A stretch of 32,140 bases of DNA. Source: Desulfobacterales bacterium (GTDB taxonomy: Bacteria > Desulfobacterota > Desulfobacteria > Desulfobacterales > C00003060). The notes under the pieces were generated by a model that was given only the letters and a program-made list of their open reading frames with translations, did not search any database and was not told where the DNA came from. The translations under genes and the position numbers were made by a program. Location of the stretch: positions 1-32,140 of the forward strand of contig JAGMBW010000020.1 in NCBI GenBank assembly GCA_023129535.1, written 5' to 3'. Below, piece by piece: positions 4,164-32,140 of the stretch (its first letter is position 1; every line of letters starts with the position of its first letter).

Positions 4164-7100
4164 TATTGCCGAATGATATTGCGGCAATTGTAAAACTCTT
4201 GTCCCTCCAATTCAGTTTTTAGCTTTTCTGCCAGTTCAAGGAGGCGAGATGCCTGAACCATCCAGAACCCCATGTTCGGGTCTGATCGGAGAAATTCAAG
4301 AAGCCTTACCCCTGCACACAGGTCCTTCGCTGCCTCAGCCCCACGCCCTGTCTTTGCGTACAGCTCAGAAAACCAAACGCAAAGGCGTAGTTCATCTCTC
4401 TTGCTTCCAAGTTCTCTCCAGAGATTTTGTGCCTTCTTGAGGTATGACATGGCCTGATCCAGTTCACCCTTGGCCTCATAGACCAATCCCAGATTGCTGT
4501 ATGAGGTGGCAACATTCGGGTGCGTCTCACCAAATAGCTCCTTGACAAGCTCCAGGGCCTTCTTGAGGTATGCGATGGCCTGATCCAGTTCGCCCTTGGC
4601 CTGATAGACCGATCCCAGATTGTTGTATGATCTGGCAACATCCGGGTGCGTCTCACCAAATAGCTCCTTGACAAGTGACAGGGCCTTCTCGTGGTATGAA
4701 ATGGCCTGATCCAGTTCGCCCTTGTGATGATAGACCCCTCCCAGATTGTTGTATGACGTGGCGACATGCGGGTGCCTCTCACCAGATAGCCCCTTCCAAA
4801 GCTCCAGGGCCTTCTTGAGGTATGCGATGGCCTGATCCAGTTCGCCCTTGTGATGATAGACCGATCCCAGATTGTTGTATGAGGCGGCAACATCCGGGTG
4901 CCTTTCACCAAACAGCCCCTTCCTCAGCTTCAGGGCCTTCTTGAGGTATGCGATGGCCTGATCCAGATCACCCTTGGCATGATAGACCGATCCCAGATTG
5001 TTGTATGAGGCGGCAACATCCGGGTGCCTTTCACCAAACAGCCCCTTCCTCAGCTTCAGGGCCTTCTCGTGGTATAAGATGGCCTGATCCAGATCACCCT
5101 TGTGATGATAGACCCCTCCCAGATTGTTGTATGACGTGGCGACATCCGGGTGCCTCTCACCAGATAGCCCCTTCCAAAGCTCCAGGGCCTTCTTGAGGTA
5201 TGCGATGGCCTGATCCAGATCACCCCTGGCCTGATAGACCGATCCCAGATTGTTGTATGAGGCGGCAACATCCGGGTGCCTTTCACCAAACAGCCCCTTC
5301 CTCAGCTCCAGGGCCTTCTCGTGGTATAAGATGGCCTGATCCAGATCACCCTTGGTCTCATAGACCAATCCCAGATTGTTGTATGAGGCGGCAACATCCG
5401 GGTGCCTTTCACCAAACAGCCCCTTCCTCAGCTTCAGGGCCTTCTTGAGGTATAAGATGGCCTGATCCAGATCACCCTTGGCATGATAGACCCCTCCCAG
5501 ATTGTTGTATGACGTGGCGACATCCGGGTGCCTCTCACCAGATAGCCCCTTCCAAAGCTCCAGGGCCTTCTTGAGGTATGCGATGGCCTGATCCAGATCA
5601 CCCCTGGCCTGATAGACCGATCCCAGATTGTTGTATGACGTGGCGACATGCGGGTGCCTCTCACCAGATAGCCCCTTCCAAAGCTCCAGGGCCTTCTCGT
5701 GGTATAAGATGGCCTGATCCAGATCACCCTTGGTCTCATAGACCAATCCCAGATTGTTGTATGAGGCGGCAACATCCGGGTGCCTTTCACCAAACAGCCC
5801 CTTCCTCAGCTCCAGGGCCTTCTTGTGGTACGAGATGGACAGGTCAATTCCTCCTCGCTCCTTTAGAAAAACCCCAATGCGGGATGCGGCCCCGGCGATC
5901 TTTTCTTTTAGCTCCTTTCTCTGCTCATCACTAAACGAGGGTAAAGAAAGGGAATCTTGCAGAACTTCTATCCGGTTAAACTCATCAGCCAGTCCTTGAG
6001 GTTCAAAGGGCAAAAGGTCTCCTGCCATGTCGAGCCGGTCTTTTTCTAAAAGTGGGCAAGTCTGGCCGAAAACGAAACGGAAAATGGGATGCAGCCTCAT
6101 AAGGGAACCCCATTGTGAAATGAGCCTGAGCCTTCTCACCAGGAGGTCGATCATGTCGGCATCTTTTACAATGAGGTCCAAAAGCTCGCGGGACATGGGG
6201 TGCTTCAGGGCAAAGAGACGGCCAAAGGCCAAGGGAGACTCCTCCAGATAGGGCTTGTAAAAGTCTAAGACCTCCTTGAGGGACCGCTGGTCCACAGCAG
6301 ACTCGGGCTGTGCTGATGGATTTTTGAGGAGCAAATCTGTGGCCAAAGGGTGCCATCCCAGAGCATTCTCTATAAAAGCATCTTGCTCCTTCAACTGTTT
6401 TTGCTCTTTCTCGGTCAATTGGCCAAGAAAGAATCGCTTTTCTGCCATATCATAAGTACCAATTTCCACCACAGGTTCGAGGGAGCGCCGGGTATCCAGA
6501 TAGGGAATGAGCCTGCTGGTGATGATGAGCCGGCCTACCCAGTCCGGCCCACTCAAGACCCGCAACATCTCTCGTATTTCCTGGTCCTTCACGAGGCCCC
6601 ATTCATCCTGAAAAACCTCAAAATTGTCCAGGATCAGCAACCAGGAAATACCGCCCAGGGCCTGGTTGAGGCGCTTCCAGAAGAGAGAGAATGCCTTGCT
6701 CGTTTTGATTTTCTCAGCCTTTTCACCGTCAATAATCTCGTGGTCTTCAAATATGGACAGAATCCGGTCTCGAATTCCCTGGATGCTTGCATCTCCGGTT
6801 TCCTTTAGGGCCTTCATATCCAGGGCCACCACATGGGCAAACTCCGGACGGAGAAATCGGGCCAGGTAATCGGCCATAAAGCTCTTGCCTGCCCCGCCAA
6901 TACCGTGAAGGACAATGACCTTTCGATCCTCGGCCAGGTGCTGGGTAATCTCCCTTAAGGGCCGGTACCGATACACATACACCCTGGTTGTTTCAAGGGT
7001 GCTCAGGTCCCGGAAGACCTTTTCTCCTTCCACTGGTTTTGGGATTTCAGTGGGAGGGAGGAATAGGTCTTCACCCTTTAAATCAGCTCGAGTAAAGAGG

Positions 7101-8135: not shown

Positions 8136-8290
8136 TGATGAACTCGTAAAAAGTCCCAAAGTTCGTCACTCCGGCGAAAGCCGGAGTCCAGCCTGCCTGT
8201 CGGCAGACAGGAACCTATTGGAAAAACTGGATTCCGGCTTTCGCCGGAATGACGGCAAAAGGGAATTCTTGACTTTTTACGAGTTCATCA
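8136..8290. mobile_element. MITE-like palindromic element
   Basis: Perfect 20-bp terminal inverted repeats, TGATGAACTCGTAAAAAGTC (8136-8155) and its complement (8271-8290), bound a 155-bp element. A second internal inverted pair carries CTCCGGCGAAAGCCGGAG-type hairpins (about 8168-8194 and 8227-8253, two mismatches). The centre is CCTGCCTGTCGGCAGACAGG. It contains no open frame of note, so any movement would need a transposase in trans. I could not identify a clear target-site duplication. The whole element can fold into one long hairpin upstream of the CHAT gene. Confidence 0.75.
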
Positions 8291-8486
8291 ATCATGACAT
8301 AAAAACATCTAAAATGGTGCAAAAAATCACCACTTCGCTTCAAATTATTTCTAGATCATTACTCCGAACATTTCTTTCTAAAATGCTTCGTACTATGGAA
8401 TTAGAACGGAAAGCCCTCTCTGGTAAGTGCAAACCAACGGTTCCTTTTGCTTGATCTCATTGTCCCTTTGTAATAATAGAAAGTTT

Positions 8487-8524
8487 CTCTGCGTACTTTG
8501 CGTCTCTGCGGTGAACTATTACCT
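8487..8524. repeat. Short intergenic repeat (CTTTGCGTCTCTGCGGTGA type)
   Basis: The stretch holds CTTTGCGTCTCTGCGGTGA preceded by CTCTGCGTA. I recall this wording from intergenic regions of many unrelated bacterial genomes, but its function is unknown to me. It ends 57 bases before the ndk start. Confidence 0.4.
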
Positions 8525-8581
8525 CCCTTTTTGTTAGGGAATTTGCCGTATCTTCAAGAAATTGCCAGAAAGGTTAAGCTT

Positions 8582-9029: not shown

Positions 9030-10385
9030 ATGATGAGAAATAAAATGAGGGCAAGCTGGTTACGTGTATTTGCGCTGTTTTTTTTTGTTGCAGCCGTGGT
9101 GATGGTGGTTGCCGTGGCACGGCAGGCTGTAGCCCAGGAGGGGGCGCCTTTATTGACTCTCAAAGAGAGTATCGAGATGGGCCTGGAGCGCAACCCGGGT
9201 ATGCAAGTGGCCCGGGAGGAAATCGAGGCTGCGCGAGAGCGCCACAAAGAGGCGAGAACCGGCTTTCTGCCGTCATTGAGCGCCCGGTATAGCTACACCC
9301 GGCCAAGCGAGGTTCCCTATGCCGTGATTGCAGGCAATCGTTTTGATTTTGCCGATAGAGATCAGTATCGTTTGACCGGCACCATCGAACAGCCCTTGTT
9401 TACCGGTTTTGCCACCCTGTCCAATTACCAGTTAGCCAGGCTGGGTCTGGGTGTGGCCAGGATCCAACTGGCCCGTGCCCGGATTGACCTCATCCTGGAG
9501 GTGAAGGAGGCATATTATGGCATCTTGAGTGCGGACAAGATCCACGAGGTAGCCGTACAGGCCGTGGAACAGTTGCAAGCACAACTGGAGGTGGCAAAAA
9601 ACTTCTACGAGGTGGGTATGAGCCCCAAGATCGAGGTGCTCGAGGCGGAGGTCCGGTTGGCAGAGGCCAGGCAGGAACTCATCCGGGCTGAAAACGACGT
9701 AAGGCTGGTCAAGGCCCGCTTCAACACCATCTTGCGTCGGTCCATTGACTTAGACGTGGTGCCGGCAGACACCCTGTCCGACCGGCCCTATGAGAAACCC
9801 TATGAGTCTTGCCTGGAGACATCGCTGCAAAAGCGGCCAGAGCTCATAGAGGCGGAGAAAAATGTCCTTAGCGCCGAAAAGGAGGTCACTCTGACCAAAA
9901 GTGCCTATTACCCCAAAGTGACCCTCTCGGGTAACTACTATCGGGCTGGTGACGATGCGTCTCTGAGTGGGAGCGATTTTGTGGACCGGGAAAAGTGGGA
10001 TATTATGGCCGTAGCCACCATGACCTTTTTCGAGTGGGGCAAGACACGGTATGCTATCAAACGGCAGCAGGCTCGATTGCGCCAGGCTAAAGAGGTCCTG
10101 GAGCAGATCAAAGACGCTGTACGTCTGGAGGTGAAGACCAATTACCTGAATCTGCAAGCCGCAGAGAAAAATATCTGGGTGGCCAGAAAGAGCGTTGAAT
10201 CAGCAGAGGAGAATTTCCGGATCAGCAAGGAGCGCTACCGGGAACAGGTGGCCACGGCCACGGAAGTCCTGGATGCCCAGACCAGATTAACCGGAGCCAG
10301 AACCAACTACACCAACGCCCTGGTAGAATTCAACGTGGGCCGGGCTCGCCTGATTCGAGCCATGGGGCTTGAATCTGATAGTTAA
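9030..10385 (+). CDS. TolC-family outer membrane efflux/secretion channel
   Basis: This 451-residue protein has a Sec signal peptide (hydrophobic core about 13-30, probable cleavage AVA|Q after residue 35). The two tandem outer-membrane-efflux halves of the TolC fold follow, rich in long helices with heptad Ala/Leu/Glu/Arg patterns (for example about 155-235 and 345-440). The trimer would form a beta-barrel and periplasmic helical tunnel serving a pump or type I exporter. No membrane-fusion protein or pump gene is adjacent, so the partner must be elsewhere. GGAGGG lies just before the ATG at 9030. The last 56 bp overlap the 3' end of purL on the other strand, with no terminator visible between them. 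Confidence 0.92.
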   Translation: MMRNKMRASWLRVFALFFFVAAVVMVVAVARQAVAQEGAPLLTLKESIEMGLERNPGMQVAREEIEAARERHKEARTGFLPSLSARYSYTRPSEVPYAVIAGNRFDFADRDQYRLTGTIEQPLFTGFATLSNYQLARLGLGVARIQLARARIDLILEVKEAYYGILSADKIHEVAVQAVEQLQAQLEVAKNFYEVGMSPKIEVLEAEVRLAEARQELIRAENDVRLVKARFNTILRRSIDLDVVPADTLSDRPYEKPYESCLETSLQKRPELIEAEKNVLSAEKEVTLTKSAYYPKVTLSGNYYRAGDDASLSGSDFVDREKWDIMAVATMTFFEWGKTRYAIKRQQARLRQAKEVLEQIKDAVRLEVKTNYLNLQAAEKNIWVARKSVESAEENFRISKERYREQVATATEVLDAQTRLTGARTNYTNALVEFNVGRARLIRAMGLESDS

Positions 10386-13371
10386 GGCGTTTCCAGGCCG
10401 CTTTGAGCTCAGAGACCGACACGCGGACAACGGGCTTCCCTTTTATGCCCTTGATTAGAAGATCGGGCTTGCTTGTGACCGTCCCGATACAGGCCAGTGG
10501 GAAGTTAGCCATGACAGACTCAAAGGATGAACGATTCGTTGGATCAATGGTTAGGATGAACCGGCCCGGTGTCTCTGAATAGAGGATGACATGATCTTTT
10601 TCTGCGTCCGCCACAGGGACCGCAGACAGGTCAATGGTCATGCCCAGACCGCCGGCCATAGCTACCATGGCAAGATGAACCCCCAGGCCTCCGCGATAGA
10701 CGCCGTGGCATGATGCGACCAGCCCCTCCTGGATGGCCCGGCTCAGGGCACGATAACCTTTCATGCACGAGTCCGGTTCCAGTCTCGGGACCTGGAGCCC
10801 TATATAACCAAAATGTTCATAATACTCCGATGCGCCCAGCTCATTCCTGGTTTCACCCATTACATACACAAGATCTCCGGCAACCTTGGCATCCATGGTG
10901 ACGCACCGCGTGACGTCTGAAACCACACTCGTGCACGTGAACTGCAAGGTGGGAAGGGCAGAGATTTTGTGGGTCTCCCCGTATCGCCCTCTGAGATGTC
11001 CGTCCACGTACATGCTGTCTTTTCCAGAAAGGAGTGGAATCTCATATGCCCGGCAGACATCCCGAAGTGCCCAGTTCGCCCTCACCAGTTGGGCTGCCTT
11101 ATACTTGCCATCAGGGTTGCCTTTCGGGTCATACTGCACCGAAGGCCAGCAAAAGTTGTCCACACCCCCGATATGATCCGGCTCTCCACCCACGGCCACG
11201 ACACGGCGCACGGCTTCATCGATGGTACAGGCCACCATGTGGTAGGTGTCGATCTCGGAATAGGCAGGGAGCAGCGCCTGGGCTGCAGCGAGCCCCTGGA
11301 GCGAGTCGAGCACAGGCCGGATGACAACCGCATCGGTGTTTACGTCTCGATCTTTTCCAACAAGGGGTTTGATGACGCTTGTGCCTTGCACCTCATGGTC
11401 GTATTGCCGAATGATCCATTCCTTTGAACAGATGTTGGGACGGGAAACAATATCAAGGAGCAGGTCTGATGCATCGTCTGGCCCGGCGAGCACTGGCTCA
11501 AAAAGGCCTCGCATCTCCGGAGGCGTCCATTCGGCTTCAAAGGTCCACTGAGGAAATTGCGAGGTGAGCAAATCAAGGTCCACGTATGCGCATGTTTGGC
11601 CATCGCAAGTGATGTGGAGTTTCCCGGAGTCTGTATAGCGACCAATGACCGTGCTTTCCACCGCGTGCTTTGTGGAAAGGGCCATGAATCGTTCGCGATG
11701 TTCGGGCCTGATGGCAACCGTCATCCGTTCCTGAGATTCAGAGACCCAGATTTCCCACTGGTCGAGCCCCTCGTATTTTAGAGGAACTTTGTCAAGCTCA
11801 ACCATACACCCCTTGCTGAAACGGGCAGATTCTCCAATGGATGACGAAAGTCCGCCCCCACCATTGTCCGTGATAAATGCAATGAGGCCCTCATCCCGCG
11901 CCTCCAGGAGGAAATCGTGCATCTTTTTTTGTGTGTAAGGGTCCCCTATCTGCACGTGTCCGGCTGGAGTATGGGCCGAGAAGCTCTCGGAAGCCGCAGT
12001 GACACCGTGGATACCGTCCTTTCCAACGCGGCCGCCACACATGACGATCAGGTCACCGGCAGAAGTGGTCTTTCCCTCGCAGGGGATTCCTTTGACCACG
12101 GCAGGCATTATGCCGACAGCAGTGACAAAGACGAGGCACTTTCCAAGGTAACCATCGTGAAACCAGACCTGCCCGAAAGGGGTGGGGATGCCGCTCTTGT
12201 TCCCGCCATCTCGCACCCCTTCGATGATGCCATCCAGCAACCGTTTGGGATGAAGATGGGGTTTGAGCTCCCCCTGGTACTCTCTGGACCCCACACAATA
12301 TCCATACATACCCATGATCAGCCTGGAGCCTTTGCCGGTGCCCATAGGGTCTCGATAGACCCCCACAATCCCGGTGATGGCCCCGCCATAGGCCTCCATA
12401 TTGGACGGGGAATTATGGGTCTCACCCGTGATGACGTAGTAGTAGTCATCGTTAAAGCGGCCCACACCTGCATTGTCCCAGAGGACTGAAATAACCCATG
12501 GTTTTTTCTTCTTGATAGTCAGGGTGGGAGCCTCGATGCAGGTAGCAAAGAGGTCGTCCACATCCTTGCTCTCCCCTGTTGCCAGGTCACGGTAGTGGAA
12601 CAGGCCCCTGAAGGTGTTGTGGTTGCAGTGATCGCTCCTCGCCTGGGAGATGTATTCCAGTTCCACATCCGTAGGTGCCGAAAGCCGGACAACCTGACGC
12701 TGGGAAAGGACATCCTCTCTGAGAAAGTACGCACGTATTGTTGGGATATCATTCGGGTTCAAAGCGAGGTTGCGTTCCTTGCTGATGTGCGCCAGTGCCT
12801 CATCGGTATCAATGGCAACAGCAGTGACTGTGGGTTTGTGATCCAGCTCCATCCTGGGTATAATGATCCCTACACCCGTTGCCGGGTCCCAGTCGTTTCG
12901 GGAAAAGACCTTCGACTGCTGGATGATGTTATTGGCAAGGATCTCTCGCACGACCCGGTCCGCATCATTGAAAGAGAGATTGCCACCCTTCAGACAGTAC
13001 CGTTTTGAGGTGTAGATCCCCTCGTGAGGTTTTATACGGATACCAAGGAGATCCTCCATGACTTCTGCGGCCGTGCTTCCGGGGTTGTCCCGTACCCCGG
13101 GCCGGTAACCGACCCAGAGTATCCAGTCGAAATCGATATGAAGCGGTTTGTAAGAAGAAATCTGGGTGACAGGATTGGTAAAGATTTCCTTCTGGATGGC
13201 TTCAAGCTGGTCCGCTGTCAGCTCCACATCGATGGTCAATATGTTAACCGTGCTAACCGACTCGATATTGAATCCAAAATAGTCGTTCGCCTTCCTGCAA
13301 ACACCAGCCCCTTCAGCGTCAAAAAGATCAGGTTTAAGAGTGATTTCCAGACGGGCAGGCCCGCCTGCCAT
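10330..13371 (-). CDS. purL: Phosphoribosylformylglycinamidine synthase, PurS-PurL fusion without glutaminase
   Basis: This protein converts FGAR, glutamine-derived ammonia and ATP to FGAM in purine synthesis. The first 90 or so residues (RLEITLKPD onward) look like a fused PurS domain. Two AIR-synthase-like halves follow, with DHCNHNTF, GETHNSPSNMEAYGG, GGRVGKDGIHG, DNGGGGLSSS and, later, GGLGVHLA. There is no C-terminal class I glutaminase, so a separate PurQ is expected. About 1013 residues are longer than Bacillus PurL and shorter than the E. coli fusion. The frame is open to an ATG at 13425. I prefer 13371 because the domain begins just after it and AAGGG lies upstream, though rather far. 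The C-terminal 17 or so residues run antisense into the TolC gene. Confidence 0.93.
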   Translation of the reverse strand: MAGGPARLEITLKPDLFDAEGAGVCRKANDYFGFNIESVSTVNILTIDVELTADQLEAIQKEIFTNPVTQISSYKPLHIDFDWILWVGYRPGVRDNPGSTAAEVMEDLLGIRIKPHEGIYTSKRYCLKGGNLSFNDADRVVREILANNIIQQSKVFSRNDWDPATGVGIIIPRMELDHKPTVTAVAIDTDEALAHISKERNLALNPNDIPTIRAYFLREDVLSQRQVVRLSAPTDVELEYISQARSDHCNHNTFRGLFHYRDLATGESKDVDDLFATCIEAPTLTIKKKKPWVISVLWDNAGVGRFNDDYYYVITGETHNSPSNMEAYGGAITGIVGVYRDPMGTGKGSRLIMGMYGYCVGSREYQGELKPHLHPKRLLDGIIEGVRDGGNKSGIPTPFGQVWFHDGYLGKCLVFVTAVGIMPAVVKGIPCEGKTTSAGDLIVMCGGRVGKDGIHGVTAASESFSAHTPAGHVQIGDPYTQKKMHDFLLEARDEGLIAFITDNGGGGLSSSIGESARFSKGCMVELDKVPLKYEGLDQWEIWVSESQERMTVAIRPEHRERFMALSTKHAVESTVIGRYTDSGKLHITCDGQTCAYVDLDLLTSQFPQWTFEAEWTPPEMRGLFEPVLAGPDDASDLLLDIVSRPNICSKEWIIRQYDHEVQGTSVIKPLVGKDRDVNTDAVVIRPVLDSLQGLAAAQALLPAYSEIDTYHMVACTIDEAVRRVVAVGGEPDHIGGVDNFCWPSVQYDPKGNPDGKYKAAQLVRANWALRDVCRAYEIPLLSGKDSMYVDGHLRGRYGETHKISALPTLQFTCTSVVSDVTRCVTMDAKVAGDLVYVMGETRNELGASEYYEHFGYIGLQVPRLEPDSCMKGYRALSRAIQEGLVASCHGVYRGGLGVHLAMVAMAGGLGMTIDLSAVPVADAEKDHVILYSETPGRFILTIDPTNRSSFESVMANFPLACIGTVTSKPDLLIKGIKGKPVVRVSVSELKAAWKRLNYQIQAPWLESGEPGPR

Positions 13372-20257: not shown

Positions 20258-20289
20258 GGCTTTGTACTTCCTTGACACTGGCCGTTGCT

Positions 20290-20441
20290 GTCATTGCGAG
20301 GAGCGAAGCGACGTGGCAATCCGACCCAAAGGGTCGTCACGAACGAAGTGAAGTGATCTCCTTATTGGTGGGGATTGCTTCACCCGCATGCTGCGGGTTC
20401 GCAACGGCTTCGCCGGATTGCTTCGCTCTGCTCGCAATGAC
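20290..20441. repeat. GTCATTGCGAG-type palindromic element
   Basis: GTCATTGCGAG (20290-20300) and CTCGCAATGAC (20431-20441) are perfect ends of a 152-bp element. Inside are GCGAAGCGACGTGGCAATCC on the left and GGATTGCTTCGC on the right, plus the small palindrome GACCCAAAGGGTC. I recall sequences of this wording as multi-copy intergenic repeats in many proteobacterial and other genomes. No open frame of its own is credible. Confidence 0.75.
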
Positions 20442-20534
20442 TGAACCGGGACTTATTGAGAACTTACTTTCTAAGGTGTGTGATGTCCAGATCAGGATGG
20501 GTATTTGATGAAAGGGATGGGCAGATAGATATCT

Positions 20535-20720: not shown

Positions 20721-20734
20721 ATTCAAATTCCCCT

Positions 20735-20906
20735 GTTGTGTTTGTTGTGTCTGTCGGGTCTGTTGTGTTTGTTGTGTCTGTTGCGTTCATATTAACCGAA
20801 CGAACTCCATAGACCCAATAAACCCAACAAACCCTACAAACTCAATAGACCCAATAAACTCAATGAACCCAATAAACTCAATAAACCCAATAAACTCAAC
20901 GAACCG
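20735..20906. repeat. Inverted arrays of 9-bp tandem units
   Basis: The left arm (20735-20788) is six units like GTTGTGTTT/GTTGTGTCT. The right arm (about 20798-20906) is some eleven units like AATAAACCC/AATAAACTC. The arms are partly complementary, so a long imperfect hairpin can form between the two small genes. Because the unit is 9 bp, reading frames stay open through it on both strands; the Cys-rich frame at 20686-20910 is such a by-product. Confidence 0.85.
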
Positions 20907-21065
20907 TTAATGCTCGTGTTGACCCTTCTTGCACAACCAGTCAAAAAATGCTCGAATGCCGCAATAGTGCAACGCTATGACCAGGAGTCCCATAACGGCA
21001 TAAAGGGTGCCCATAAATACAAAGTGGCTTGCATCGCTGACCCAGTCAAAAATAAATGGAAACAT
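20907..21065 (-). CDS. 52-residue membrane protein directly after qrcD
   Basis: This short gene (52 residues, MFPFIFDWVSDASHF... to ...KKGQHEH) has AGGAAGGA 9 or so bases before its ATG and begins 24 bp after the qrcD stop. It has one clear membrane helix (about 16-34) followed by an amphipathic segment and a His-rich end. It is not in the usual ORF length range and is easily missed. Its place in the qrc operon suggests a small subunit or assembly factor of Qrc. I do not recognise the family. Confidence 0.7.
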   Translation of the reverse strand: MFPFIFDWVSDASHFVFMGTLYAVMGLLVIALHYCGIRAFFDWLCKKGQHEH

Positions 21066-21089
21066 GGCAAAAGTTCCTTCCTACCTAAC

Positions 21090-22322
21090 TTAAAGTGGAT
21101 TTAGCTCTTTCTCTTGTGGAAAGATTGGCAAATACCGGTACGAAATCGATATCACAATGGCACTCAGCCAGACCCACATCAGTGTGCTCGCCCACTCCGC
21201 CCAGTTTGGATGATAGCTGAAGAATTTGTCAAATGACATGACCGGCACTGCCAACGTCTGTACACTCATAATCCATCGATTCATAAAGATTCCTGCGCAA
21301 TTCAAAAGGCATGCAAGGATTAACAGAGGTTGATTCTGCCGCGCTCTGGTAGACAGAAGGATAATGCATGGGATAATGCCTAAGATTCCAACCTCTGTTA
21401 TTAACACCCACCAGCCATACGGCTGATTGGCGTAGAAACTGCCGGCAGGAGCTCCCACGCTTGGGGCAAGGCTGACTCCCCAAGAGATCGTGTCTATTAT
21501 CTTCAAGACCAGATAACCACCTAAGAGCCAGCCTGAAATCTTGGCAAGAATGTCAATGACATTTCTTTTGACCAACTGCTTTTTCGCAAATGTTTCCGTG
21601 ATCCGTGTAATGAGGATAGTAAAGCAGGGACCACAGGCCATGGCGGAAAGAATAAATAGGAAAAAAGTCCAGGGCCAGACCAGAAAGCCTTCCCGATAAG
21701 CAAAAGGCCTGCCATAAAGCACGCTGGGCACACCGCCCAGGGAACCCTGATGAAAGAAGGAAAGAAAGACACCGATTGCCGCAATAGCGGGCATCGCTTC
21801 ATGAAGATGATGTGCAAAGGAACGGGGGAATCCAAACTTGTTGATCTCTCGATTTTCCAGAACCAGAGGAAGGTACTCAATCAACAGGACAGTAAAATAG
21901 CACGAGATACAGAAGGCCACCTCTGTCAGCATGGAATGGACATTCGCATGCCAGAAAATATGCCAACCTCTCAATGGTTGACCGATATCTACAGCAAGGA
22001 TGCCCAGGGCCGCGGCATAGCACATTACGCCGATAACCGTAGCAAAATTGACGATATTTTTAAGCTCATCTATTTTAATAATATACCTTAGAAAGGCCGT
22101 AAAAAAGGCACCTCCACCAAGGGCAATAATACCCAGATCTGCGGCAATCCACAGACCGAACGGATAATTGTTGTTAAGATATGTCTGGTTCAAGGCAAGG
22201 CCCCAGCACACAAGATAGGCGATAACCCCTATCAAAAAAGGGATCTGCAAGATGCCGATCCACACAAGAAAAAGTCCAAAGGGACACCGTTTAACACCCT
22301 TTGGTATTAGTGCAGAATCCAT
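21090..22322 (-). CDS. qrcD: QrcD, NrfD-family menaquinone-reactive membrane subunit
   Basis: This 410-residue protein has about ten membrane spans and NrfD features (DIGQPLRGWHIFWHAN, residues about 112-127, matches the DLGxPxR motif region). In Qrc it is the menaquinone reductase subunit that takes electrons from QrcC. AAAAGGAG lies 7 bases before the ATG. The gene follows qrcC after 37 bp. It resembles DsrP in the facing operon by family, but they are not close copies. Confidence 0.92.
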   Translation of the reverse strand: MDSALIPKGVKRCPFGLFLVWIGILQIPFLIGVIAYLVCWGLALNQTYLNNNYPFGLWIAADLGIIALGGGAFFTAFLRYIIKIDELKNIVNFATVIGVMCYAAALGILAVDIGQPLRGWHIFWHANVHSMLTEVAFCISCYFTVLLIEYLPLVLENREINKFGFPRSFAHHLHEAMPAIAAIGVFLSFFHQGSLGGVPSVLYGRPFAYREGFLVWPWTFFLFILSAMACGPCFTILITRITETFAKKQLVKRNVIDILAKISGWLLGGYLVLKIIDTISWGVSLAPSVGAPAGSFYANQPYGWWVLITEVGILGIIPCIILLSTRARQNQPLLILACLLNCAGIFMNRWIMSVQTLAVPVMSFDKFFSYHPNWAEWASTLMWVWLSAIVISISYRYLPIFPQEKELNPL

Positions 22323-22359
22323 GTCAAGTCTCCTTTTGAAACCAGTGATGGGTTAACGG

Positions 22360-23175
22360 TCAGGCGTGGGTTACAGGCTTTCCTTCCTCGCCCAAATACA
22401 CGTCGGCTGCCTTCTGGACCCAGTCCTTTGTTGAAACATAGTATACCTTGGGATTGGTACCGAGTTTTTCCAGGAGCCGGAAGGCAATCTTTTTCTTTTT
22501 ACCTTCCTCAACTAACTTATGAACCTTGTGCTCCGGGTTTTTCAAATCCCCAAACGTAATCGCCCCTGCAGGGCAGGCCTGGGTGCAAGCTGTTTGATAT
22601 TCATCCTCGCGAATCTCGCGTCGTCCTTCTGAGTAGGTCTTGTTCCTGGCCCGCTGAAGCCGATGGTGGCAAAAGGTGCATTTTTCTACCACACCCCGCA
22701 TTCGAGGTGACACATCAGGGCTCAGGTACTTTTCCATCCCTTTTGGCCAGCTTGGATCCCACCAGTTAAACACACGCGCATGGTAAGGACAGGCAGCCAT
22801 GCAATACCGGCATCCAAAACAGCGGGTGTAAATCTGACTTACAATACCGGTCTCATGATCATAATCAGTAGCGCATGCAGGGCATACCGATACACACGGT
22901 GTATGATGGTGATGGCCGTGGCCCTCGCAGTGCATACACGGCCTGGGAATATAACAGACATCAGTGTCTGGAAAGGAACGACCGTTGGTGATCTTGTAAA
23001 CCCGCATCCAGAAGTTACTGACCAGTTTGTTTGTTTCGTCTTTCCTGAAGGATATGTTGTTCTCAGCCATGCACGCCACCATGCAAGCGCCACAGCCTGT
23101 GCATTTGTCCAGATCAATCACCATACCGTACTTGTAAGTCTTCTTACCTGGTCTGTGTCCGTGTTCCTCTTTCAT
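22360..23175 (-). CDS. qrcC: QrcC, periplasmic iron-sulfur subunit
   Basis: This 271-residue protein has four ferredoxin-like Cys groups: C25-x2-C28-x2-C31-x3-C35, C80-x2-C83-x10-C94-x3-C98, C119-x2-C122-x2-C125-x3-C129 and the C-terminal group with KCTFCHHRLQ and ACTQACPAG. No signal peptide is seen, which fits co-export with the Tat-borne QrcB. The second group has an unusual His-rich stretch (HGHHHH, 86-91) between its second and third Cys. In DsrO the same spacing is only 4. AAGGGG lies before the ATG. It passes electrons from QrcA/QrcB to QrcD. Confidence 0.92.
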   Translation of the reverse strand: MKEEHGHRPGKKTYKYGMVIDLDKCTGCGACMVACMAENNISFRKDETNKLVSNFWMRVYKITNGRSFPDTDVCYIPRPCMHCEGHGHHHHTPCVSVCPACATDYDHETGIVSQIYTRCFGCRYCMAACPYHARVFNWWDPSWPKGMEKYLSPDVSPRMRGVVEKCTFCHHRLQRARNKTYSEGRREIREDEYQTACTQACPAGAITFGDLKNPEHKVHKLVEEGKKKKIAFRLLEKLGTNPKVYYVSTKDWVQKAADVYLGEEGKPVTHA

Positions 23176-23195
23176 GGTTACCCCTTGTTGAATAA

Positions 23196-23308
23196 CGTTA
23201 GGGAGTAATGGAGTGTTGGAGTACCGGAGTACGACGTACTAAAACTGCCTCTAACCCATTACTCCACCACTCCATTGCTCCAATACTCCAATTGGGGCGA
23301 AGCCCCAA
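23196..23308. repeat. Inverted arrays of 8-bp tandem units between qrcB and qrcC
   Basis: The left arm (about 23207-23233) is four units of GGAGTxxx (GGAGTAAT, GGAGTGTT, GGAGTACC, GGAGTACG). The right arm (about 23260-23291) is four units of ACTCCAxx. They are complementary and can form a hairpin. A separate tight hairpin, TTGGGGC-GAA-GCCCCAA (23292-23308), stands 5 bases after the qrcB stop on the coding strand. These lie inside an operon gap and may shape transcript stability or processing. Confidence 0.8.
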
Positions 23309-23313
23309 CGTTC

Positions 23314-25611
23314 TTAAACCCTGGTCAGTTTAGCCCGAATGCCCCAGGTAGCAGAGAGGCCGGAAATCGGGTCTTCCGTTACCCCCATCAGGCTGTTTGT
23401 ATTCACACCCTTGCCTGCCAGATAGTCGTCATACGCCGTATGACCAAGACCCTTCGGGATAGCTATCACCCCTGGCATGATCCCCTCAAAAAGGTGCACA
23501 AGCACCCTCGCTTTTCCTCTTGGTGTTTCGAGCATGGTATCCTGACCCTCGGAAAGACGATATTTGGCAGCCGTTTTGGGATTGACCTCTATGAAAAGAT
23601 CATTCTTTTTCAGCTCCGTTTCTTCCAGGGTCTTCATACAAAATGGCGGGTTCCCGACTGCCCCGTTTGCCAGCCGCGTCAATTCTACAGGTATCAAGAT
23701 CAAGGGATAGGTAGCCGGGTTCCCCTCTGGCTGAGCCGGCTCATAGTGGGGAAGACACTGCAGATCTTTATTTATTTTCATGCCCGCCTGCTCAAAGGCC
23801 GTAATATAGAACTCAAACTTACCAGACGCCGTGGCAAAAGCGTTTTCCCATACGGGAGGAGTGTAGTCGGCCTCTTCTATATAGCCTGCTTCTTCCAGGG
23901 TGTCCCATTTGTCTCCAATCGTCTCTTTCAACACAGTTTCATAATCTTCCCACGGGAAGGCATCGCCGACTACCCCGCCCAAGCGTTTTGCAATGGTCAA
24001 AATGACATCCCCTGCATGCCTTGTATCAAACTGAGGCGATACCACTGGCCTGACCAGGCCGAGTATCGGAACTTGTAAACCGGTGGGTGTGGGAGCGTCT
24101 TCCCAGCGCTCTAAATAGTGGGGGTTGGGCAAAATGAGGTCTGCATGATATGCGGTTTCGTCCATAAGGGTGGAAAAACTTACCACAAAAGGAATGCGGT
24201 CGAAGGCCCTGGCCACTGCTGCAGAGTCAAGAGTGGTATAATATGGATCGGCCTCGTGTACAAGGAGGGCCTCGATCAGACAGGCCTTGTGCCCGTTGAC
24301 AATTTGAGGCCATCTCTCCGGCAGATACCTTGTAAAGGGATAGCGACTGCCGCCCGCGCCATCTATGCGAGGCATGCCAGAACCGGTCCGGGCGATGTGA
24401 TCCTGGTCCACCTTCGGCCATGTCTCGGTGGCCACCTCCGGAAGGGTCGAGACACCACCTATCTTGTTGATATTCCCTACAAGGGCGTTAAGGGCATGTA
24501 CTGCCATGCACTCATAAAGGCTTCCGGATGTAGTTCCCTTGCCGCGGCCCCAAACCGCTATGGGGCGATCAGCCTTTGCAAAGGCCGTGGCAAGCCTGAC
24601 AATCTTTTTGGCTGAAAGCCCTGTGATCCTGGATACGGCGTTTGGTGAATATTTTTTTAAGACCAAACGCTTGAAACCGATGTGTCTCCTGCCGCTATCG
24701 TCTGTCCAATCTTCAAACCCAAAGGTGTGGTTTTCTACAAAGTCAGTGTGGTATAATGATTTTTTTATGATAACATGAGCCAGCCCGAGAGCGAGAGCCC
24801 CCTCTGTTCCGGGATTTATGGGATACCACTGGTCAGCTTTGGCAGCCGTATTCGACAGCCGCGGCTCAATCTGAACCAACGTAGCCCGTTCTTTCAAATT
24901 GCCGGATCGCCATATACTGTGTGCTTTGATCACACGCACGGTTGATCCCCAGCCTTCTATAAGCCCGCATCCAAAACTCAGGATATACTTTGCATGCTCC
25001 AGGTCATAGGCCACAGAGGCCGCGGCCCCCTGCATGAGACTCATGGCCAACTCGTAGGTATCATCACATGAAGCTGTGCGGATAAAATTCGGCGAGCCGT
25101 ACGCCTTCAGAAAACGGCTAAATAACTGTGGCACAGTTCCGCGATCCGAACCGAGAATGCAGGCGACGGTATGAGATTTGCCCTTGCGGCGCAAATCGGA
25201 AAGTTTTTGGACCACGTCGCCGATTGCCTTTTCCCAGGAGATATTTTCCCAATGTCCTGAACCCCGTTTTCCCACGCGTCTTAAGGGACCGGGGACACGC
25301 CAGGGACCGTACAGTAGCTGCAGATCTGCTGCCGTTTGAATCGATATGCCGCCATCATTGACCGGGTATCCTTTTCTTCCTTCGATCTTTGTGGCGCGGT
25401 CTCCAACCTTTCTAAGCGTGATACCAGAACCGCAATGTTTGGATACCGTATTGACATGAGTAACTTCTCCGGTACGAGGGACCGGCGTCCACGGCCAGTT
25501 CTGCGTCCAGATGGAAAAATCATCTGTTAGCTTCCACGGTAAGGGCGACAGCGTGATGCCGGCACCAGCCCCAAGTGAAAACTGTATAAATCCTCTTCTG
25601 TCCAGTTTCAT
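23314..25611 (-). CDS. qrcB: QrcB, molybdopterin-oxidoreductase-like subunit with Tat signal
   Basis: This 765-residue protein has a Tat signal (DRRGFIQFSLGAG, 4-16) and the fold of the DMSO-reductase family: N-terminal segment, nucleotide-binding-like middle (WGRGKGTTSGS, VGNINKIGG) and the C-terminal beta-barrel domain. The N-terminal four-Cys cluster motif of active family members is missing: only one Cys (SKHCGSG, about 60) is left. This agrees with QrcB, which is described as lacking molybdenum and serving a structural or electron-relay role. AAGGGGAAGG precedes the ATG. A 135-bp gap with repeats separates it from qrcA. Confidence 0.92.
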   Translation of the reverse strand: MKLDRRGFIQFSLGAGAGITLSPLPWKLTDDFSIWTQNWPWTPVPRTGEVTHVNTVSKHCGSGITLRKVGDRATKIEGRKGYPVNDGGISIQTAADLQLLYGPWRVPGPLRRVGKRGSGHWENISWEKAIGDVVQKLSDLRRKGKSHTVACILGSDRGTVPQLFSRFLKAYGSPNFIRTASCDDTYELAMSLMQGAAASVAYDLEHAKYILSFGCGLIEGWGSTVRVIKAHSIWRSGNLKERATLVQIEPRLSNTAAKADQWYPINPGTEGALALGLAHVIIKKSLYHTDFVENHTFGFEDWTDDSGRRHIGFKRLVLKKYSPNAVSRITGLSAKKIVRLATAFAKADRPIAVWGRGKGTTSGSLYECMAVHALNALVGNINKIGGVSTLPEVATETWPKVDQDHIARTGSGMPRIDGAGGSRYPFTRYLPERWPQIVNGHKACLIEALLVHEADPYYTTLDSAAVARAFDRIPFVVSFSTLMDETAYHADLILPNPHYLERWEDAPTPTGLQVPILGLVRPVVSPQFDTRHAGDVILTIAKRLGGVVGDAFPWEDYETVLKETIGDKWDTLEEAGYIEEADYTPPVWENAFATASGKFEFYITAFEQAGMKINKDLQCLPHYEPAQPEGNPATYPLILIPVELTRLANGAVGNPPFCMKTLEETELKKNDLFIEVNPKTAAKYRLSEGQDTMLETPRGKARVLVHLFEGIMPGVIAIPKGLGHTAYDDYLAGKGVNTNSLMGVTEDPISGLSATWGIRAKLTRV

Positions 25612-25629
25612 ACGCCTTCCCCTTAAATT

Positions 25630-25744
25630 AAGTGCCTAAAGTTATAAGTGCCTAAAGTGCCTAAAGTTGATGAGTGAAAAAACCTTTCATTTTTGCTTTG
25701 AACTTTAGCTCACTTTAGTCACTTTAGTCACTTTAGCGCACTTT
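25630..25744. repeat. Inverted arrays of 9-bp tandem units between qrcA and qrcB
   Basis: The left arm (25630-25668) has three copies of AGTGCCTAA and related AAAGT words. The right arm (25702-25744) has four copies of CTTTAGTCA-type units ending in CTTT. The arms are partly complementary and bracket about 33 AT-rich bases. It fills nearly the whole gap between the two genes, the same build as the arrays at 20735-20906 and 23196-23308 but with a different unit. Confidence 0.85.
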
Positions 25745-25746
25745 CT

Positions 25747-26478
25747 TTATTTGTGGCACACAAAGCAGGCATTGCTGGTGCCCCTTTTCTCGTGACAGTC
25801 TCCGCAGTCATCCATCTTCATCCGGGCGGGGCGATCCATCTTCATCCGAGCGGAATCATCCATCTTCATCCAATCCCAGGCGTTCTTCCCCATGCCTGCA
25901 ATGTTCCAGCCCCATATATCGCGACTATAGCCGGTAAGGATATTACACTGGTAAGGTCTTGTGTGATCCGAATCCCCTATGCGTCCGTGACAGGCAGCGC
26001 ATTCCAGCTCTGCCATTTTGATATGGGCTGCATGAGAGAAAAAGACACAGTCTGGCTGGCTGGCATATGTAAGCCACGGGATCTCTTTTCCGGGCTCAAC
26101 ATATTTCTCAATGAGTTTCGCCTCCTCAGGATTTTCTCCCATCGCCTCTTCGTGACATTCGGCGCAGTTTTCGAGCTTAGGAATACCTGAAAAGCTTCCG
26201 TCCTCGCGGAAAAAATGGCAGCTTTCGCACCCTTCATCCACCGCTTCCTGATGAACGCTATGGCTGAAATCAATAGGCTGGTGTTTCTCACAATAGATGA
26301 TTTTCGGAAAGATCACCCAGCCGATAAAGAGGGATACCACAAAGCCTACTCCGAATAGAACAATCGGTATGAGAAATCGCCAGGTGACCGGTTCAAGCTG
26401 TTCAGGAGCCGCCGCATGTTCTGCGGTTTCCTGTTCGCCTTCAGCCACGGTTTTTTCTTTTTCTTCTGTTGTGCTCAT
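25747..26478 (-). CDS. qrcA: QrcA, membrane-anchored multihaem cytochrome c
   Basis: This 243-residue protein has a Glu/Ala-rich cytoplasmic N terminus, one membrane helix (about 33-55) and a periplasmic domain with five CxxCH motifs (CESCH, CAECH, CAACH, CGDCH, CFVCH). Distal His ligands appear in FSHSVH and FSHAAH as in class III cytochromes. QrcA of Desulfovibrio is described as six-haem, so the sixth site may be noncanonical (CEKH directly after the helix) or absent. QrcA receives electrons from periplasmic cytochrome c3. GGAG lies before the ATG. An 8-residue segment (MKMDxxxR) is repeated three times before the fourth haem site. Confidence 0.88.
   Translation of the reverse strand: MSTTEEKEKTVAEGEQETAEHAAAPEQLEPVTWRFLIPIVLFGVGFVVSLFIGWVIFPKIIYCEKHQPIDFSHSVHQEAVDEGCESCHFFREDGSFSGIPKLENCAECHEEAMGENPEEAKLIEKYVEPGKEIPWLTYASQPDCVFFSHAAHIKMAELECAACHGRIGDSDHTRPYQCNILTGYSRDIWGWNIAGMGKNAWDWMKMDDSARMKMDRPARMKMDDCGDCHEKRGTSNACFVCHK
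25807..25878 (-). repeat. In-frame 24-bp tandem triplication in qrcA
   Basis: Three 24-bp copies around ATCCATCTTCATCC encode MKMDDSAR, MKMDRPAR and MKMDDCGD in a row, the last one running into the CGDCH haem motif. This looks like slipped-strand duplication. Copy number may vary among relatives. Confidence 0.8.
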
Positions 26479-31862: not shown

Positions 31863-31917
31863 TTTTTCCCTCTGTAACAAAGAAAACCCAACAAACTGCT
31901 AGATCCCACGAATCACC

Positions 31918-31970
31918 GGTTCAGAGTTTCGGTGAACTCTGAACCCTGAACCTCTGAACCCGTGAACCGT
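31918..31970. repeat. TGAAC-type short tandem repeat with hairpin
   Basis: GGTTCAGAGTT (31918-31928) pairs with AACTCTGAACC (31935-31945). It continues as CCTGAACC, TCTGAACC and CGTGAACC words. The same 7-8 base motif flanks the inverted repeat at 14172-14220. It lies upstream of the HD-GYP gene and may be part of its leader or only a repeat element. Confidence 0.75.
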
Positions 31971-32015: not shown

Positions 32016-32033
32016 CGCAGGCTTTAGCCTGCG
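32016..32033. repeat. CGCAGGC palindrome
   Basis: CGCAGGC-TTTA-GCCTGCG is a perfect 7-bp stem with a 4-base loop inside GTAGCCGCAGGCTTTAGCC, a wording I recall from gaps of many genomes. The remaining bases to 32140 show no gene that I can support; all - strand frames there close quickly or are incomplete at the window edge. Confidence 0.6.
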
Positions 32034-32140
32034 TTTATTAAAACCAGCCCGCCCTGGCGCGACAGAAGTGGGGCAATGTCACAGAGTCAAAAACCCGGTC
32101 TGGGCCATGGTTGGGTGAATGTGAAGTTGCCCCAACCAAC

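Follow-up and report, generated by a model that had tools for sequence, protein, structure and literature searches.

Several classes of repeat are the closest described counterparts of the elements considered here, which are pairs of facing tandem arrays of 8–9 bp units that fill three gaps of the qrc operon, a respiratory operon, on a 32,140-nucleotide stretch of DNA from a sulfate-reducing Desulfobacterales bacterium (GenBank assembly GCA_023129535.1, contig JAGMBW010000020.1; this whole stretch is called the window). The arms of Foldback elements are tandem arrays of short units. The short tandemly repeated repetitive (STRR) sequences of cyanobacteria are heptamer repeats, i.e., short tandem units in mainly intergenic positions. 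Clustered regularly interspaced short palindromic repeats (CRISPR) are direct repeats of 21–48 bp with unique spacers and cas genes, a form that units of 7–9 bp in facing arms do not fit.

For Galileo, “independent TIR dynamism” (TIR, terminal inverted repeat) has been described, and its repeats are regarded as extra transposase-binding sites (PMC3573991). The present elements resemble the eukaryotic elements Galileo and Foldback (the latter of Drosophila) in that 79 pairs were found with internally repetitive inverted arms around a variable middle. They differ in having units of 7–9 bp and a whole length of about 60–400 bp, in being bacterial, and in occurring as many unrelated families per genome; furthermore, neither a transposase (Y1_Tnp being the family searched) nor a target-site duplication (looked for by eye at a few empty sites) was found.

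Bacterial interspersed mosaic elements (BIMEs), which belong with the repetitive extragenic palindromic (REP) sequences and REPINs, are intergenic, palindromic, present in high copy number, often located in 3′ regions, and form mosaics with short modules (PMC3733652). The arrays described here are likewise mostly intergenic, numerous and mosaic, with recurrent modules beside the arms of two unit families, GGAGT and GGAAT. However, a REP is a single palindrome of 20–40 bp with a GTAG or CGTC foot, whereas here the arms are tandem arrays and such feet occur at chance level. The TAACTGA heptamers of Beggiatoaceae repeat a single unit in direct orientation, apart from one inverted case among 170 sets (PMC4679880), and BrickBuilt of Porphyromonas gingivalis is a miniature inverted-repeat transposable element (MITE) that holds a minisatellite of 19 copies of a 23-nt unit (PMC4596501). 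BrickBuilt is similar in being a bacterial, MITE-like, intergenic element with internal tandem repeats, but it has a single unit, and the array is in its body rather than in facing arms. TAACTGA and STRR sequences share with the present arrays the short tandem units, the mainly intergenic position and the occurrence at many places, but neither, as far as STRR sequences are generally known, consists of facing complementary arrays in many unit families. The tandem repeat regions of Borgs, which are archaeal extrachromosomal elements, turn over rapidly and differ between close relatives, and their repeats are perfect and direct, have longer units and lie in coding regions in about half of cases (PMC9879509). 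Fast turnover between relatives is shared with the arrays described here, whereas inverted arms are not.

As far as these systems were compared, from the portions of the published accounts cited above, none joins facing tandem arrays and many unit families in one bacterial genome. The architecture resembles that of eukaryotic Foldback elements combined with BIME-style intergenic mosaics. No published description of such elements was found in searches of open-licence papers, and searches there for tandem or inverted repeats in Desulfobacterota yielded nothing on the subject. The explanation preferred here, with a probability of about 0.5, is that the three qrc gaps hold members of a genome-wide, non-autonomous, largely selfish, foldback-like system of intergenic repeats.

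Structure of the Elements in the qrc Operon

A sequence-only reading of the window had proposed that the gaps at 20735–20906, 23196–23308 and 25630–25744 have the same build, namely one arm of tandem 8–9 bp units followed by a partly complementary arm, with a different unit in each gap. These coordinates are correct, and the arms are as follows, together with a hairpin that adjoins one of them and a fourth array.

20734..20786, plus strand: gap 1, left arm; tandem array of about 6 units of 9 bp (TGTTGTGTY), pairing with the right arm in the fold
~20791..20905, plus strand: gap 1, right arm; tandem array of about 12 units of 9 bp (AACYCAATA), inverted score 19
23197..23232, plus strand: gap 2 (qrcB/qrcC), left arm; TGGAGTRN units, period 8
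23256..23292, plus strand: gap 2, right arm; NYACTCCA units, period 8, inverted score 17
~23294..23310, no strand assigned: GGGGCTTCGCCCC hairpin, adjoining the outer end of the gap 2 GGAGT arm and folding on its own
25630..25667, plus strand: gap 3 (qrcA/qrcB), left arm; tandem array of AAGTGCCTA units, period 9
25702..25744, plus strand: gap 3, right arm; ACTTTAGTC units, period 9, inverted score 20.5
~31908..31970, no strand assigned: fourth, shorter inverted array of the GGTTCA/TGAACC family; arms of 23 nt, 83% complementary, period 7–8

Gap 1 is situated between two small open reading frames downstream of qrcD and has unequal arms, the right being longer than the left; in gap 2, positions 23202–23223 and 23260–23281 are 91% complementary. 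The fourth array is near the right end of the window, beyond the range of the three gaps. The arm-to-arm alignment scores of gaps 1, 2 and 3 in the inverted orientation (19, 17 and 20.5) compare with 2, 3 and 3 in the direct orientation, and for each gap none of 500 dinucleotide shuffles of the right arm matched the observed inverted score. Thus, the common build is borne out and the complementarity exceeds chance level. Among the other arrays of the genome, counted together rather than itemised, 4, 18 and 0 of 246 reach the same inverted score as gaps 1, 2 and 3, respectively.

The unit does differ between the gaps, although the 8-bp unit of gap 2, first written as GGAGTxxx, is better written as TGGAGTRN; on one strand, 90 of 93 units have R-N-T as the spacer between successive GGAGT cores, and on the other strand 91 of 99 do. 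Across 19 GGAGT elements, the similarity between the arms of the same element is no greater than that between arms taken from separate elements (permutation p 0.99), and the complementarity resides in the unit family, not base by base. Arm-templated repair was considered and set aside, as the best match it predicts between an element's own arms is absent in the same test, which gives it no support at that scale. A left/right asymmetry of the spacer (GTT left, GAT right), suggested by 19 elements, weakened in a larger count (GTT, 12 left and 9 right; GAT, 11 and 25).

When folded as RNA, gaps 1, 2 and 3 have predicted z scores of −4.7, −6.5 and −5.9 on the transcribed strand and −7.0, −7.5 and −7.3 on the opposite strand, gap 1 having been folded over 20735–20883 only (149 bases). 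Such strong predicted hairpins (z −4.7 to −7.5) would suit selected mRNA elements, i.e., hairpins between cistrons that make transcripts more stable, trim them or attenuate their synthesis and thereby control gene dosage in the operon; the sequence-only reading had suggested that hairpins could give the subunits different mRNA levels. An explanation by selected mRNA elements is improbable. A scan for intrinsic terminators (a GC-rich hairpin plus a U run) gave no match within gaps 2 or 3 and one weak match overlapping the edge of gap 1 (14 matches in the region, compared with 7.4 expected), and the comparison with relatives, described below, also goes against it. No Rfam family matched at the three qrc gaps.

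Arrays Throughout the Genome

The host genome, that of a Desulfobacterales relative, comprises 2.90 Mb in 230 contigs, of which two samples (531 kb together, about 18% of the genome) were searched with an array detector of period 6–10 bp. Sample 1 (359,791 bp) consists of the window and stretches from contigs with GGAGT hits, and is therefore biased; sample 2 (171,629 bp) consists of stretches picked by contig number. Sample 1 contains 252 arrays, compared with 3 in a Markov null, and sample 2 contains 72, compared with 0, while the same detector finds 1 array in 50 kb of Escherichia coli K-12. Periods 7, 8 and 9 account for 249 arrays in sample 1 and for 66 in sample 2. Neighbouring arrays in sample 1 form inverted pairs at a score of at least 10 in 71 of 147 cases (6% expected for random pairs) and direct pairs in 11 (8% for random pairs); in sample 2, at a score of 11, 14 of 30 pairs are inverted and 8 are direct. 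For GGAGT, a triple pattern with three-base spacing has 123 forward and 112 reverse matches, compared with 4 and 1 for a reversed control. Thus, the arrays of the window are far from alone, there being 79 distinct inverted pairs in the 531 kb.

These 79 pairs have median arms of 37 and 36 nt and a median loop of 33 nt. As in Foldback and Galileo, the arms vary in repeat number independently: the correlation between left and right arm length is 0.12 (r), and orthologs differ by one unit in a single arm (G005 compared with G015, and G006 with G017). Each element has the form (unit)n–loop–(complement of unit)m, with units of 7–9 (rarely 10) bp, and many unit families are present in one genome, several of them recurrent at many places: GGAGTRNT, GGAATNNT, GATTGNY, GCGCATA, GTTGAGTN, AGGCNNA, GGTTCAN, TTGRGTTTA, GGTTGAGCC, CTAAAGTGNN, TCAGTGR and CATTTAT.

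A minority of copies have a common loop, or are nested in or joined with other short dispersed modules. GGAGT arms enclose AGGC arms in L111, L126 and L166, and these three composite elements have common loops; in L120, GGAGT arms enclose GTTCCG/CAACCCG arms. Four GGAAT elements of three genomes also have common loops. The short modules that recur beside arms include GGGGCTTCGCCCCAATT, GTTCGCTTCGCTCACAATT and GTAACCGTTCAC, and the GGGGCTTCGCCCC hairpin of gap 2 also flanks other GGAGT elements in this genome and in congeners. A separate dispersed module with GGTCTGGGCCAGGG and CCCGCCCTGGCGCGACAG was observed at window positions 32030–32110 and in qrc gaps of L041, L031 and G005 (L041 and G005 are the same genome, as are L031 and G017); it is intergenic across the genus and is frequently within or beside array elements.

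The polarity of the pairs is pronounced: the G-rich arm leads in 70 of the 79 and the C-rich arm in 4, while 5 are mixed. An absolute polarity, suggested by sample 1 (left arm G>C in 69 of 70), was rejected on sample 2, which gave 6 rows each way and was itself skewed partly by one CATTTAT left arm counted three times. G-first polarity is thus strong but has exceptions, and copies that belong to one family cannot be counted as independent. Taken by itself, it would suit a Rho- or strand-related signal, since G-first order makes the 3′ arm rich in C and poor in G on either strand, at intervals of 7–9 nt, so that every passing transcript would bear a stretch like a Rho-loading site. The spacing within Rho primary sites resembles that of the arrays. 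Nevertheless, such a signal is a very doubtful explanation: in the predicted hairpin the C-rich arm is base-paired, elements are found inside operons that need read-through (qrc), and a family with the C-rich arm on the left exists (CATTTAT).

With respect to genes, elements concentrate between the stop codon of one gene and the start of the next in tandem gene pairs. Genes other than qrc were called with a home-made, crude codon-model caller (383 genes over 531 kb), which sets certain starts wrongly (e.g., that of qrcC), so that distances and classes are approximate. By this caller, 73 inverted clusters fall into 54 in tandem gaps, 5 convergent, 2 divergent, 6 called coding and 6 at edges; an earlier version of it divided the same clusters into 61, 5, 2, 2 and 3. 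Elements in tandem gaps begin a median of 8 nt past the stop codon and end a median of 19.5 nt ahead of the next start. Divergent gaps are depleted (p 0.009) in comparison with all gaps of at least 80 nt (165 tandem, 21 convergent and 34 divergent). Placement downstream of a stop codon and ahead of the next ribosome-binding site, with depletion in divergent gaps, is also what selected mRNA elements would show; nevertheless, the spread of elements through the genome beside other genes gives no support to a role in the dosage of qrc subunits.

The Same Gaps in Related Genomes

The GGAGT family is present in 16 of 21 congeners and in 4 of 38 other genomes of the order that were searched. The number of arrays per 10 kb of sampled stretches varies across the genus from 0.11 in G007, which is nearly array-free (1 array in 90 kb, stretches L272–L276), through 0.8 (G012), 1.8 (G006 and G020), 2.3 (G011) and 3.5 (G003) to 5.7–7.3 (G015, G017 and G005). 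In other Desulfobacterales, 1.01 Mb yielded 106 arrays; among their 26 neighbouring pairs, 14 are inverted and 3 direct. Within the phylum, 14 of 395 genomes, this one included, carry the GATTG family (GATTGNY), which so reaches other genera; in 11 GATTG loci from those genomes, 3 of 21 pairs are inverted and 15 direct, i.e., the arrays there are mostly direct.

In the qrc operon, the gap between qrcA and qrcB holds the AGTGCCTAA family in this genome, a decayed version of it in L033 and L035, and another heptamer pair in L031, whereas in L034, L036, L039 and L042 it is 27–48 nt long without an element. The gap between qrcB and qrcC contains GGAGT in this genome and L038, GTCGAGT in L041 and G015, and GGAAT in G017; it measures 22–37 nt in L033 to L036 and L042 and is empty in G011. 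The gap between qrcC and qrcD (22323–22359 in the window) is empty in this genome and in G011, and has GGAGT in G006 and G017 and GTCGAGT in G005. At the last gap (gap 1), shorter versions of its 9-bp family are present in L034, L035 and L041. At three qrc junctions, L036 and L042 have gaps of 22–60 nt and no detectable elements, and G011 has gaps of 34–77 nt at four junctions, one of them with a short mini-version of the gap 1 family. As several congeners are without a detectable element at one or more qrc junctions, a conserved subunit-dosage role is unlikely.

Two observations concern modules in the same gaps. A module that ends in AAATTCCGARACR stays on the same side of the gap despite differing array families, in the qrcB/qrcC gap of G005, G015 and G017 and in the qrcC/qrcD gap of G005, G006 and G017; exchange of the array within an inherited insertion would fit this retention. 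In L038, positions 8253–8567 (qrcB/qrcC) and 9363–9515 (qrcC/qrcD) are occupied by the same element, with ends TAGACTTTCACATATTAAATTTCAC, in opposite orientations; this MITE-like repeat of the operon is separate from the arrays.

A second syntenic region, L120, gives a similar picture: three gaps hold GGAGT here and GTTGAGT, GGAAT or GATTG elsewhere, while the flanks are 82–90% identical. Positions 6150–6257 have GGAGT in this genome and GTTGAGT in G005 and G015; positions 11048–11470 have GGAGT in this genome, GGAAT in G015, GTTGAGT in G017 and nothing in G011. The 239 nt at 2344–2582 correspond to a clean empty site in G015 and G006, where the stop and start codons directly adjoin as TAATG or TGATG. 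At 8231–8431, a GGAGT ortholog has been conserved between this genome (G000) and G017, and retention of one element at the same gap is a point in favour of a selected function in mRNA. Overall, one gap with flanks 70–90% identical may have a different family, the same family, or nothing in different congeners. The suggestion from the sequence-only reading that units be compared at the same gap thus led to different units in close relatives.

With junctions of the window set by hand, an element is present in the relative in 12 of the 40 comparisons in which this genome has one and in 2 of the 26 in which the gap here is empty (p 0.035), but the comparisons are not independent and the gaps that are empty here are mostly short, so that no weight is placed on a hot-spot reading. 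The detector is strict and overlooks degenerate arms, such as the GTCGAGT element of G005, which is plain by eye. Judged by eye, the 12 comparisons with both gaps filled comprise 2 of the same family, 2 of related 8-bp families and 8 of clearly different families; an automatic split gave 3 the same and 9 different, with borderline assignments (GTTGAGT and GGAGT at 0.50 called the same, GGAAT and GGAGT at 0.49 called different). If the hairpins had been selected for an effect on mRNA, relatives with the operon would not be expected to have one or more qrc junctions free of elements or occupied by other families, to be filled in only 12 of 40 comparisons with 8 of 12 clearly another family (by the strict detector), or, as in G007, to have so few arrays.

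How the Arrays May Have Arisen

The sequence-only reading had offered, as its other possibility, an unknown process of replication or slippage that makes such arrays. Its core agrees with the findings, as the architecture is genome-wide with many units and the same gap differs among relatives; fresh slippage at each site does not, since recurrent families and composites with shared loops indicate dispersal of families. Dispersal is supported because constrained units recur, composite elements have common loops, and gaps are filled in one genome and empty in another. In a foldback-like system, whole elements or arms would be copied into new intercistronic gaps by a putative factor, for which the tandem units may be repeated binding sites, or else the units may be a by-product of slippage within the arms. 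Copies would persist where the DNA between a stop codon and the next ribosome-binding site tolerates insertions, as divergent promoter regions presumably do not. The RNA hairpins would be mostly passengers: an incidental effect on mRNA is possible, perhaps as local protection or cutting of the qrc transcript, but it would not be the reason that the elements have been kept.

Local generation offers a different and possible explanation, held with little confidence. Slippage would make the tandem array on site, snap-back template switching would copy the inverted arm, and the shared families would stem from sequences favoured by the polymerase and by hairpin extension, without any mobile unit. 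The uniqueness in the sample of 33 of 41 cores and of most flanks, the gain or loss of units within single arms, the periods of nearly always 7–9 bp regardless of unit, and the imperfection of the units, which is like that of old slippage arrays, are all as local generation would have them. Less easily accommodated are the GGAGT units with their constrained R-N-T spacer at many unrelated places, families of the GATTGNY type in other genera of the phylum, and the composites with common loops; also, an element's own arms are no more alike than foreign arms, whereas templated copying would leave them more alike unless it were old. Thus, local generation accounts for unique loops, not for shared units.

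Several results weigh against the foldback-like system that is preferred here. A second copy elsewhere in its own sample was found for 8 of 41 element cores (of at least 25 unmasked bases) and for 1 of 70 and 4 of 71 flanks, whereas 40 of 174 random intergenic 45-mers have one, so that cores are proportionally no higher. Because cores rarely recur, most elements have only arm units in common, which is below what would be expected of a mobile cassette. No target-site duplication was evident by eye at the few empty sites, where flanks are 10–30% diverged and boundaries uncertain. No transposase could be tied to the arrays, Y1_Tnp being the only family searched: inverted arrays flank none of the 3 Y1_Tnp genes of this genome, one of which has a lone tandem array in its vicinity, and the number of Y1 transposases has no significant correlation with that of GGAGT (Spearman 0.36, p 0.10). 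Finally, a foldback-like system leaves the G-first polarity without explanation. As regards MITEs, dispersed common ends together with a common body were seen for 8 of 41 cores in the 18% sample and also for the composite and GGAAT groups, and not for the three qrc elements.

The Y1 results bear equally on REP/REPIN-type repeats mobilised by a REP-associated tyrosine transposase (RAYT; TnpA-REP, of the Y1 family). Like REPs and BIMEs, the elements are intergenic, palindromic, mosaic and numerous, and Y1_Tnp genes are present in 20 of 22 genomes of the genus. Yet mobilisation of this type is most unlikely, given the absence of inverted arrays around Y1 genes, the lack of a significant correlation with their number, and the chance-level frequency of feet, GTAG and CGTC lying within 12 nt of an arm in 5 and 3 of 67 elements, respectively, with about 4.6 expected for each.

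A tentative alternative is a foldback-like class of mobile repeat with swappable arms, in which the site between stop codon and ribosome-binding site would be inherited and the array exchangeable for one of another unit family, and a strand-specific process would nearly always place the G-rich array on the 5′ side of its C-rich partner.

The qrc Genes and Other Features of the Window

QrcA, QrcB, QrcC and QrcD each score above their own NCBIfam cut-off.

25747..26478, minus strand: qrcA, multihaem cytochrome c subunit (NF041781, 250 bits, cut-off 180)
23314..25611, minus strand: qrcB, molybdopterin-binding-like subunit (NF041783, 521.6 bits, cut-off 440)
22360..23175, minus strand: qrcC, iron-sulfur subunit (NF041782, 435.8 bits, cut-off 400)
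21090..22322, minus strand: qrcD, membrane subunit (NF041784, 603.7 bits, cut-off 570)

The sole Rfam match across the window is a tRNA at 32–106. Positions 4431–5838 contain a 126-bp unit repeated about 11 times within a minus-strand reading frame of 1329 amino acids, i.e., a repeat protein with units of 42 amino acids. At 8136–8290 there are nested inverted repeats, 20 nt at 100% surrounding 28 nt at 93%, which may represent a further dispersed palindrome, of the CCGGAATGACG type. Another inverted repeat, CATTGCGAGGAG / CTGCTCGCAATG, is located at 20282–20449, and GCTTCGCTCGCAATGAC pieces related to it recur in the loops and flanks of array elements of congeners.

Significance

Short tandem arrays are usually taken to be products of slippage, and short palindromes to be of the REP type, whereas here a single element unites the two, a genome contains many unit families, and there is turnover between species whose genes remain 70–90% identical. 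The case would allow the question to be asked of whether tandem arrays in inverted arms are recognition sites for the enzyme of a mobile element or products of replication errors, and it also raises the question of why the intercistronic gaps of bacterial operons accept such arrays. For uncultured sulfate reducers, it is a caution against taking the hairpins of their operons as regulators.

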